This document shows positions 36,139 through 58,952 of a stretch of 64,000 bases of DNA, piece by piece. The notes under the pieces are model-generated. The model was not told where the DNA came from. It made no database searches and was given only the letters and a program-made list of their open reading frames with translations. The position numbers and the translations under genes are program-made. Position 1 is the first letter of the stretch. Every line of letters starts with the position of its first letter. This DNA comes from an uncultured Clostridia bacterium. Lineage in GTDB: Bacteria; Bacillota; Clostridia; Oscillospirales; Acutalibacteraceae. Where the stretch lies: positions 1 through 64,000 of the forward strand of contig CAMNST010000003.1 of assembly GCA_946555465.1 (NCBI GenBank). Reading direction: 5' to 3'.

Positions 36139-36332
36139 TTGACTAATGTATTTGAAATGTGATATAATAATCATGCCAAATAACCTTAATAGTTTCCTAA
36201 ATCAGTGTGTATTTTTTATTTTAATAAAAATACATGCTCTATTTTCACATGCTCTTTTAGGAAATGTGAGGTTGTTTGGCGACAGTTGGAGTATGCGTTT
36301 TTTATGCGTGGCTCCGGCTGCGCATTTTTTTA
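36139..36332 (+). ncRNA. Structured RNA unit, copy A (unknown family)
   Basis: Promoter TTGACT (36139-36144), 18 bases, TGA-TATAAT (36163-36168) with extended -10. From about 36175 the RNA closes with stem 1 (36175-36187 with 36268-36280, 13 pairs including two G-U), stem 2 (TTTCCTAAA 36193-36201 with TTTAGGAAA 36256-36264, then GTGTG with CACAT), an apical hairpin of T and A runs, and a conserved strand TGCTCTATTT. It ends in an 8-bp stem with UCCG loop (36305-36324) plus seven T. GTTGGAG (36285-36291) can pair instead with 36312-36318, breaking the terminator. No gene lies inside. Confidence 0.8.
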
Positions 36333-36338
36333 TTTCCA

Positions 36339-36542
36339 TTGACTAATGAATTTAATTTGTGGTATAATATTTTTGCTAGATTAATTTAATAGATTACAAT
36401 AAACAAAGTGTGGCTATTTTTATTTTTTTGATAAAAACGTCGTGCTCTATTTGTCATACTTTGTTTGTGATAATATTAAATTAGTCTAGCAACTAAAAGG
36501 AGCCGCACGTTTTTTATGCGCGGCTTCGGCTGCGCATTTTTT
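36339..36542 (+). ncRNA. Structured RNA unit, copy B (unknown family)
   Basis: It lies exactly 200 bases after copy A: -35 TTGACT at 36339, -10 TATAAT at 36363, stem start at 36375. Stem 1 is 17 pairs (36375-36391 with 36474-36490, one G-U) with sequence mostly different from copy A. Stem 2 pairs AAACAAAGTGTGGC with GTCATACTTTGTTT. The apical T/A hairpin and GTGCTCTATTT strand are kept. The terminator 36517-36536 has a UUCG loop and six T. GGAGCCGC (36499-36506) can pair with GCGGCTTC (36520-36527), excluding the terminator. Confidence 0.8.
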
Positions 36543-36639
36543 GTTTTTTGGGGGGTGAATCTTAATTATACATTGTTCTGACTGCCGCCAAATGTTTATT
36601 TAAAATGAGAACAGCCGCGATTTTGTCGCGGCTGTTTTT
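36543..36639. terminator. Spacer with bidirectional terminator
   Basis: After copy B a G run and short A/T sequence hold no gene. A 10-bp perfect stem ACAGCCGCGA/TCGCGGCTGT (36611-36620 with 36626-36635) with T run on the plus strand blocks read-through into the convergent PAS gene and also closes that gene. Confidence 0.75.
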
Positions 36640-37791
36640 TTATGCGTTGTTTGTATTCTGATATTTTTTTGTTATGTTTTTCAGGCTGCAAAGCATTGCG
36701 TAAGAGCCGTCATCCTGTGTTATGATTTTTCGTATATCTTCAACGATGATAATTTTGCCTGCCCCTGTTTTTATAGAATAGCGAACACAGATTTTTTCGT
36801 TGCTTTCAGTCTGCTTTTTTATGGTTTCGCAAACATATTCTGCCTCTTTTTTATCCATAAAATCGGCAAGGTTTCCGCCGTGTTCATCAAAGAGTTTTGA
36901 ACGGCTGTAACCAAGAAATTTTGTGAAATCTTCGCTTACCAACTGAAGAACAAGCGGTTCTTCGGTATTGGTGCTGAAAACTGCTGTCGGCAGGTTTTTG
37001 AACATAGTAACCAGGTTGTCGTAAAGGCTGTCTGCTTTTGCCTCTGCCTCTTTAACACTTGTTATATCGGTAAACATAGCGTGAAAAACGGGGCTGCCGT
37101 CTTCATTATAATTCTGAATAGCAGCGTTTACCTTGCACCAGCGAAATTCATTTTTATGCACCACTGTGCGAAATTCCATATCAATAGGTTCGTCGGTTGC
37201 CATTGCTTTTCCTATGGCCTGAAATACGCTGCTTTTATCGTCGGGATGAATCAGTTCGTCAATTCTGTATGCTGATTTTTTATAAATTCCCTTAGATGTT
37301 CCGAACAGGCGGCATCCGCCTTCATTGAGGTATTCAACTTCTATGTGCATATCATCGGTAACTTTAAACAGGCAAACGCCGCCTGTTACAAGGTCGATAA
37401 GGTAATTCATTCTTTTTGCCTGATTGCGAAGTTCAATCTGTTTTTGCCGTGATTTTGAAACATCGGCGAGCGTTAAACGGCAGAGGGTTGAGTTTTCAAA
37501 GTTCTGCCCTGTGCAGTGGATAAAAACATCATTATCATTTTTATCCGTAAATTCTGCATCAAAATAAACGTACGGCGAGTTCTTTTTGCACAGTGATTTC
37601 ATTGTTTCCTCGCGGTAAACAGGCTTTATAATATCAAGCAGAAATAATTTTCCCTGCTTTATTTTTGATGGGTGAACACCCGTAAATTCACAAAAGTGGC
37701 TGTCACAGTCAATTACTTTAAGGTTATCTGCTTTGTCTGCCACCAGATTCATAAAATCAACTTCATATGTACTTTCATAGATGTCTTCCAA
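36640..37791 (-). CDS. Protein of three PAS domains without output domain
   Basis: 383 residues arranged as PAS 1 (about 15-120, CEFTGVHPSKIKQG), PAS 2 (about 130-250, LNEGGCRLFGTS, FRWCKVNAAIQN, FHAMFTDITSVKEAE, typical PAS plus PAC) and PAS 3 (about 265-378, SEDFTKFLGYSRSKL, MLCSLKNITKK). No kinase, GGDEF, EAL or DNA-binding part follows, so it either acts by partner binding or is a truncated sensor. It stands alone on the minus strand. Signal unknown. Confidence 0.8.
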   Translation of the reverse strand: MEDIYESTYEVDFMNLVADKADNLKVIDCDSHFCEFTGVHPSKIKQGKLFLLDIIKPVYREETMKSLCKKNSPYVYFDAEFTDKNDNDVFIHCTGQNFENSTLCRLTLADVSKSRQKQIELRNQAKRMNYLIDLVTGGVCLFKVTDDMHIEVEYLNEGGCRLFGTSKGIYKKSAYRIDELIHPDDKSSVFQAIGKAMATDEPIDMEFRTVVHKNEFRWCKVNAAIQNYNEDGSPVFHAMFTDITSVKEAEAKADSLYDNLVTMFKNLPTAVFSTNTEEPLVLQLVSEDFTKFLGYSRSKLFDEHGGNLADFMDKKEAEYVCETIKKQTESNEKICVRYSIKTGAGKIIIVEDIRKIITQDDGSYAMLCSLKNITKKYQNTNNA

Positions 37792-53019: not shown

Positions 53020-53295
53020 CTATTTTTTCAGCATATTCTGCATCTGTTTGCTGCATTGGTCAGATAGTTCGCTCAGTTCTTCTGAATAATCAAATGCTTC
53101 GCTGATTGCCGTGCAGAGCAGGTCGTACTCCCTGTTTTTATATGCCTCCAGTTCCACACAGCGCTCCTCAAGAATCCGCAGCAATGCAACTTTGTTTGTC
53201 AGTTTGTACAGACTGTCGTTCAGCCGGTTGTGCAGTTTGAAAAACTCATGCAAATCCTTGTCCTCAATATTGTATACAGTTCTTTCTTCAGCCAT
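53020..53295 (-). CDS. Small coiled-coil protein behind structured RNA C
   Basis: 91 residues, highly charged and helical throughout (LHEFFKLHNRLNDSLYKLTNK, ILEERCVELEAYKNREYDLL, FDYSEELSELSDQC), with no signal peptide or membrane helix and three Cys. No family is recognised. The ATG at 53295 has GGGGG 7-12 bases before it; a longer frame to 53361 would run through the RNA terminator and lacks a site. Its start lies 21 bases after the terminator of RNA copy C, so expression may depend on read-through. Confidence 0.65.
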   Translation of the reverse strand: MAEERTVYNIEDKDLHEFFKLHNRLNDSLYKLTNKVALLRILEERCVELEAYKNREYDLLCTAISEAFDYSEELSELSDQCSKQMQNMLKK

Positions 53296-53315: not shown

Positions 53316-53517
53316 AAAAAATGCGCAGCCGAAGCCACGCACAAAAAACGCATTGCTCCAACTGTCGCTAAACTCAATGAATACTTTTCGTTTAAAAGTA
53401 TGCAAATAAGAAGCATGCGTTTTTATCAGAAGATAAAAAATACATACCTATAAACGAAAAATTTTATTCAGTTGAGTTTAGCAAAATCATTATATCACAA
53501 ATAGGAATATTAGTCAA
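53316..53517 (-). ncRNA. Structured RNA unit, copy C (unknown family)
   Basis: Promoter on the minus strand: TTGACT (53512-53517), 17 bases, TGA-TATAAT (53489-53494). Stem 1 pairs 53465-53482 with 53367-53383 (17 pairs, one bulge). Stem 2 pairs TTTTCGTTTA with TAAACGAAAA, then GTATG with CATAC. The apical TTTTTTATC/GATAAAAA hairpin and CATGCTTCTTATTT strand follow copies A and B. GACAGTTGGAG is shared with copy A. The terminator (53322-53341) has a UUCG loop and six T; GTTGGAGC can pair with GCTTCGGC to exclude it. It leads into the small protein gene at 53295. Confidence 0.8.
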
Positions 53518-58744: not shown

Positions 58745-58775
58745 AGATTGTGCAGACAATAGTCTGACTAAAAAT

Positions 58776-58905
58776 ATTTTCGGGGCGAGGTGCAAATCCT
58801 CACCGGCGGTTAAAGTCCGCGACCCATAGTGATATGGCTGAATCGGTGAAATTCCGATACCGACGGTAAGTGCGAAATTTCGTATAAGTCCGGATGAGAG
58901 AAAAT
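58776..58905 (+). ncRNA. FMN riboswitch (RFN element)
   Basis: The conserved RFN strings are present in order: GGGGCGAGGTGCAAATCC, CACCGGCGGT, AGTCCGCGACCC, GGTGAAATTCCGATACCG, CGGTAAG and AGTCCGGATGAGAGAAAATG. P1 pairs ATTTTC (58776-58781) with GAAAAT (58900-58905). It senses FMN and controls the riboflavin importer that follows, so FMN excess would lower vitamin uptake. Confidence 0.97.
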
Positions 58906-58952
58906 GTTGGGTGATATATGCAGGTATTATTGCCCTCGGTCAAAACATTTGC

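Follow-up and report, generated by a model that had tools for sequence, protein, structure and literature searches.

A promoter-fused family of structured leader RNAs in Clostridia, probably acting as pseudoknot-gated transcription attenuators

Known attenuators and three units in the window

Riboswitch-type attenuators are 5' leaders placed just before a start codon, in which a terminator and an antiterminator exclude one another and a further helix blocks the antiterminator. T-box leaders likewise choose between terminator and antiterminator, and are defined by a UGGN bulge in the latter. In plasmids pT181 and pIP501 the antisense RNA is encoded on the strand opposite its target. There, according to the passages of PMC5415839 that deal with these plasmids, RNA complementary to the nascent leader favours termination. 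MRSC-65-2 is presented, in the corresponding passages of PMC11109978, as a mobile or repeat sequence candidate that is present in many copies per genome and has a long stem with covariation.

Three copies of a structured RNA unit, here called A, B and C, lie in the window, the whole 64,000-nucleotide stretch of DNA analysed (Table 1). On the strength of sequence comparison, we read the family to which they belong as a pseudoknot-gated, promoter-fused, cis-acting transcription attenuator, a reading to which we give a probability of roughly 78%. Its leader RNA would choose between terminator and antiterminator as T-box leaders do, and it resembles riboswitch-type attenuators in all three properties named above. 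It differs from the latter in having no recognisable aptamer, a promoter inside the conserved unit, diverse downstream genes and no Rfam match at threshold. The sole sequence enrichment found besides the pairing strands is an AATA bulge in the long stem (96/140 units versus 41 in one shuffle); typical metabolite aptamers show more conservation than such a bulge alone. With MRSC-65-2-type candidates, as portrayed in those passages of PMC11109978, the family shares its many copies per genome and covarying long stem; it is set apart from them by a mostly constant orientation upstream of genes, by its promoter and terminator, and by additional exclusive helices.

Unit B follows unit A at an offset of exactly 200 bases, as the first-pass annotation had reported: the -35 TTGACT stands at 36139 and 36339, TATAAT ends at 36168 and 36368, and stem P1 starts at 36175 and 36375. 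Also present, as it described, are a long stem in two parts, an apical T/A hairpin, the strand TGCTCTATTT and the terminators (UCCG in A, UUCG in B). The third copy that it listed was confirmed on the minus strand, where the conserved strand reads TGCTTCTTATTT rather than TGCTCTATTT. A fixed 200-base period as a feature of the family was rejected: three other tandem pairs in the genome (L016, L020 and L023) start 223-225 bases apart, and 200 is the spacing of the A/B pair alone. An FMN riboswitch is also found in the window, at 58772-58909 (102.4 bits).

Table 1. Features of units A, B and C and of their surroundings in the window.
Feature	Position	Strand	Basis
Unit A promoter, -35 TTGACT and extended -10 TGTGATATAAT	36139..36168	+	sequence
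Unit A RNA: P1/P2/X stem, apical T/A hairpin, central strand, strand D, terminator	36175..36331	+	137 bits (covariance model)
Unit A central strand ACATGCTC; partners: upstream strand (Y) or D (pseudoknot Z)	36232..36239	+	
Unit A strand D CAGTTGGAGTATGCG, antiterminator 5' half and pseudoknot partner	36283..36297	+	
Unit A intrinsic terminator, UCCG loop	36305..36331	+	sequence; terminator helix paired in 30/30 rows
Unit B promoter	36339..36368	+	sequence
Unit B RNA, architecture as unit A	36375..36542	+	131.3 bits (covariance model)
Unit B strand D, diverged: AACTAAAAGGAGCCGCACG	36491-36509	+	
Tail after unit B, complementary to the D strands of units A and C and more weakly to that of B	36571..36594	+	duplex energies
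Hairpin, terminator-like with T run, closing the unit B tail	36611..36641	+	sequence
Unit C: promoter 53517-53489 and leader RNA 53482-53316	53316..53517	-	153.9 bits (covariance model)
91-aa gene under unit C	53023..53295	-	ATG at 53295

A cmscan search of Rfam 15 at gathering thresholds returned, for the whole window, only the FMN riboswitch and tRNA, both outside the units, and, for 20 loci of other species, four tRNA matches alone. Searches at relaxed E-values, covering part of the window and five loci, gave sub-threshold matches alone. The earlier statement that the units could not be assigned to a known class is upheld to the extent that Rfam 15 holds no family matching them at threshold, and on the same ground membership of a known Rfam class, including 6S, raiA and ROOL, was rejected. 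A T-box was also rejected: no Rfam T-box match was obtained in the window or in the 20 other-species loci, and the common sequence of strand D, GCAGCAATCGGAG, has no UGG; some units do contain UGG. Supplementary motif tables aside, where it may be listed, the element is undescribed in the relevant passages of PMC8632094, PMC11109978, PMC8040213 and PMC5415839 and in the wider literature searched. Judged from its sequences, this is a structured RNA family under selection for structure and absent from the Rfam catalogue.

Copy number, spread and compensatory pairing

An nhmmer profile built from A, B and C was searched against 23 further loci of this genome together with the window, and gave 35 matches, comprising 30 full-length and five truncated units. 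A covariance model was then built from the 30 full units, with a structure hand-drawn from single-sequence folds. Across the whole genome this model found 34 matches, and it located the family in other Clostridia as well, so the further copies for which the first-pass annotation had proposed such a search do exist. Counting the genome itself, matches were obtained in 50/60 genomes of the genus, 69/200 of the family, 101/295 of the order and 72/291 of the class (E up to 1e-5). In a draw of 299 genomes from the phylum, the genome itself was matched and none of the 298 others, at least nine of which belong to the same order or class. Since only 47 candidates per genome were scored in the genus draw, 14 in the family draw and nine in the order, class and phylum draws, copy numbers in the draws are lower bounds and weak matches may have been missed. 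In named genomes a pattern scan picked up 68 stretches, mostly from gut or rumen samples with Oscillospiraceae, Ruminococcaceae, Ruminococcus, Eubacterium or Clostridia in their titles, and it is on these titles that the class is taken to be Clostridia. A leader RNA that covaries and is present in roughly one in four of the sampled genomes of the class, one in three of the order and the majority of one genus has no Rfam entry; it would offer a way into the control of genes in uncultured Clostridia of gut and rumen.

The five truncated units (L011:1678-1791, L023:1653-1765, L027:1530-1671 and two in L031:1461-1688) are without promoter and upstream strand. Three of them head an array with a full unit next, and the L031 pair is consecutive with no full unit. 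Four start near the central AAAATACATGCTC strand; the L027 unit retains the apical hairpin. Because the competitor strand is missing, truncated units could serve as plain terminators. Separately, a contig from a viral collection (L214:6412-6585) carries near its end what looks like a family unit, with a Shine-Dalgarno sequence and start codons behind it.

The first-pass annotation also held that pairing is kept by matching changes on both sides of the stems. Compensatory change indeed exceeds chance, both in the 30 full units of this genome and in 87 units of other genomes. With the hand-drawn structure, 88.3% of cells pair in the 30 units against 79.0% after shuffling, with covariation scores of 0.324 and 0.158, respectively. 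For the 87 units, in an alignment fitted to the model, the corresponding values are 95.4% against 81.3% and 0.458 against 0.191. In each set, 0/500 shuffles reached the observed pairing or the observed covariation score, and sliding the 3' partners abolished the pairing signal in the 30 units. RNAalifold, run on a MAFFT alignment, recovered pseudoknot Z and the terminator unprompted; it did not return P1/P2, the basis for which is the hand-drawn structure together with the strand test described below.

In the strand test, the duplex energy of two strands within one unit is compared with that of the same strands taken from different units. Among other genomes, 140 of the 147 unique units entered the test, the remaining seven not being segmentable. 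Strong unit-specific pairing was found for P1 (z -27.7) and X (-26.0), followed by Y (-10.3), Z (-10.2) and the antiterminator (-7.7); six control strand pairs lay between 0.1 and 1.5. All five helices held when strands were exchanged only between units of one sequence type and one taxon set (z -6.0 to -24.5, the antiterminator giving -6.0 and -6.3). Two controls run under this restriction gave 1.5 and 2.2, the own partner being slightly weaker than the permuted one. In the 30 units of this genome, P1, P2, X and Z each gave p 0.0001, Y 0.0025 and the antiterminator 0.0023, with four other strand pairs at p 0.30-0.54. Column counts agreed for Z, whose covariation score was reached by 0/500 shuffles. 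Among the five helices the antiterminator has the least support: its score was reached by 4/500 shuffles and its count of further pair types by 110/500.

The abundance of the unit raises the question whether it is a selfish repeat propagating a cassette of promoter, hairpin and terminator, and the 34 matches in one genome, the tandem arrays, the five truncated copies and the similar 91-aa genes under 13 full units would all suit such an element. However, orientation and distance to the gene are mostly constant, the genes are diverse, and the stems change sequence yet keep their pairing. Viral contigs, moreover, yielded one stretch matching the signature pattern and no confirmed relative of the 91-aa protein. 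We regard a selfish repeat as very improbable.

Exclusive helices, promoters and downstream genes

Neighbouring helices of the unit compete for strands: X and Y share one, as do Y and Z, Z and the antiterminator, and the antiterminator and the terminator. Two combinations are complete, namely X with Z and the terminator, and Y with the antiterminator. Terminator and antiterminator, although exclusive, are both maintained, the former being paired in 30/30 rows and the latter keeping its unit-specific pairing (z -7.7). In predicted stability, the antiterminator hairpin exceeds the terminator in 118/140 units, whereas the terminator together with the Z core exceeds the antiterminator in 140/140; X, Y and the cost of the pseudoknot lie outside this sum. 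These energies are consistent with a switch.

The promoter holds a fixed position relative to the RNA. Among testable units of other genomes, 124/136 have a promoter with a score of 9 of 12 or more, compared with 16/272 control windows, and in 112/136 the -10 of such a promoter ends exactly 6 nt upstream of RNA base 1. Downstream, a Shine-Dalgarno sequence and a reading frame on the same strand follow within 80 nt in 112/145 evaluable units, at a median of 21 nt. The same units gave 19 with a gene on the divergent-strand control, units with short flanks being counted as misses. Of the 33 units that are not followed by such a gene, ten are followed by another unit.

Genes some 21 nt downstream, combined with a terminator and an antiterminator that exclude one another, make a cis-acting attenuator the best reading. 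Transcription would probably start at base 1 of stem P1. In the off state, the long stem P1/P2/X would close and free the central strand (consensus AAAAAUGCAUGCUC), which would then pair with strand D (consensus GGAGCAUGCGUUUUUU) as pseudoknot Z. With D held in Z the antiterminator could not form, and the terminator would. In the on state, the central strand would remain paired with the upstream strand (Y), leaving D to pair with the 5' half of the terminator, and the polymerase would continue into the Shine-Dalgarno sequence and the gene. Sequence comparison itself establishes where promoter and gene lie and which helices keep unit-specific pairing, and covariation shows these helices to exclude one another. 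We infer that the helices switch in the cell, that control runs in this direction and that some signal, be it a ligand, a protein, an RNA or the speed of transcription, shifts the balance. The mutually exclusive helices lend themselves to directly testable mutations.

A unit with its own promoter and terminator might alternatively be a small-RNA gene whose terminated product, about 160-170 nt long, acts in trans, the nearby gene being incidental or reached by leaky read-through; gene-less copies, A and B among them, would fit this. Such an account leaves the excess of same-strand genes with a Shine-Dalgarno sequence within 80 nt (112/145 against 19 on the divergent strand) to be explained. Furthermore, the antiterminator keeps unit-specific pairing, for which a pure terminator has no evident use. 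We therefore consider small-RNA genes an unlikely explanation of the family. The proposal of the first-pass annotation that the units act as free RNAs fails as a general statement, given the gene at a median of 21 nt in 112/145 units and the exclusive helices. For A and B themselves, which would be gene-less copies of the switch and end in terminators, a free-RNA product is likely. The accompanying remark that no gene lies downstream holds for A and B and does not extend to C, which sits directly before a gene (ATG 53295), the usual case elsewhere (112/145).

The arrangement of terminator and antiterminator would also accommodate a leader-peptide attenuator mediated by the ribosome. In 68/140 units a stretch resembling a Shine-Dalgarno sequence does precede a start codon, in 58 of these 68 within bases 90-159. 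However, the stretch has no single conserved place, the fullest 10-base bin holding 17/68, and 72/140 units have none; the GGAG and ATG near base 130 fall within strand D and could be accounted for by the pairing of that strand alone. We judge this the least probable of the explanations weighed, slightly below the selfish repeat.

Under the cis-acting attenuator, diverse genes would be placed under control. Signal- or membrane-like N-termini were found in 66 of the 112 downstream proteins and a lipobox in 28 (raw counts from a crude test, not a measure of enrichment); many genes behind the leader look secreted or membrane-bound. A Pfam search of 74 downstream proteins identified BspA-type leucine-rich repeats in 10, LRR_8 in eight, and zinc ribbon and HTH_3 in three each; the other families, among the 25 of 67 shown, have one or two members each. 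No single pathway emerged from the Pfam assignments of these 74 proteins. In one other species (L096:1501-2285), two units stand in tandem, and behind each lie a Shine-Dalgarno sequence and the start of a gene. The two starts are similar, one reading MAYSNFD before a stop and the other MARSNFAVPYI..., as if leader and gene start had been duplicated.

In the genome of the window, 13 of the 30 full units precede paralogous genes for 91-aa proteins, one of which is cut by a contig end. The other 17 comprise ten gene-less units with a tail, five units upstream of another in tandem (unit A is one of these), one ending near a contig end and one before a different reading frame. Counting the gene under unit C, the 91-aa family has 12 members matched over their full or nearly full length, with 60-99% identity to the query, and two contig-edge matches. 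The protein has no Pfam or NCBIfam family above cut-off and only weak PHROGs matches, and no match was found in 39 other genomes (24 of the same genus and 15 of the same order). Viral contigs contained 17 pattern matches, none of which was confirmed as a relative. Folding from a single window sequence predicted one long helix (mean pLDDT 92.8, pTM 0.53), with four further models weaker.

Complementary tails of the gene-less units

The regions following the ten gene-less units, B included, are extensively complementary to strand D, the antiterminator strand, of the coding leaders; the tail of B goes unmentioned in the first-pass annotation. Against D of the 13 coding leaders the ten tails give a mean duplex energy of -28.3 kcal/mol, compared with -21.0 against their own D and about -16 for shuffled tails. 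Regions downstream of coding units give -17.1 kcal/mol against coding D. For the tail of unit B the energies are -22.3 (D of A), -24.5 (D of C) and -16.5 kcal/mol (D of B). A coding D is the better partner than the own D for 9/10 tails (Wilcoxon p 0.006; label permutation p 0.004), and tail-adjacent D strands pair worse with tails than coding D does (Mann-Whitney p 0.0005). These p-values are indicative, since related copies were treated as independent and the tests were made after the pattern had been seen. The common D motif ACAGTT is absent from 8/10 tail producers and from 2/13 coding leaders (16 and 29).

This complementarity suggests that the gene-less units of this genome make trans-acting antisense RNAs by way of their tails, and unit B may drive one such short RNA. 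A wider reading, which we hold only tentatively, is an RNA-only network in which gene-less units act as antisense-RNA genes that terminate coding leaders, with feedback and self-immunity. Read-through of a gene-less unit's own switch would release the tail, a lengthened and diffusible version of the central strand; the tail would bind the antiterminator strand in each of the 13 coding leaders and so force termination, while the diverged D of most producers would let them escape their own product. The tails of units 2 and 6 pair strongly with their own D, which for unit 2 is the better partner, so self-immunity would not be universal. Should the tails be active, one attenuator would be reused as both the target and the source of a trans-acting RNA.

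The parallel with pT181 and pIP501, as those plasmids are treated in the relevant passages of PMC5415839, is that an RNA complementary to the leader would push it towards termination. The layout differs: the tails would act in trans and lie downstream of a copy of the targeted switch, after gene-less units elsewhere in the genome, and not on the strand opposite their target.

A general role for tails across species was rejected. In other species, 146 post-terminator regions gave a mean of -17.7 against consensus D, versus -16.1 when shuffled; one of the 146, located inside a coding region (L075), reached -26 or less. Against their own D the means were -17.1 and -15.4 when shuffled, with 2/138 at -26 or less (L059 and L127). 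Given this slight excess and no general tail elsewhere, the tails look particular to this genome. Within it, searching the whole genome for the core of the tail and allowing three mismatches at most returned 33 matches, of which 22 fall on the reverse strand of units, six in tails and five elsewhere; as a reversed control pattern gave 15 matches, the weaker ones prove little by themselves. Variation of strand D is also seen at two coding loci with tandem units, L016 and L020, where the upstream unit has a D of the AGCAAACG type and the unit adjacent to the gene has the common or near-common D.
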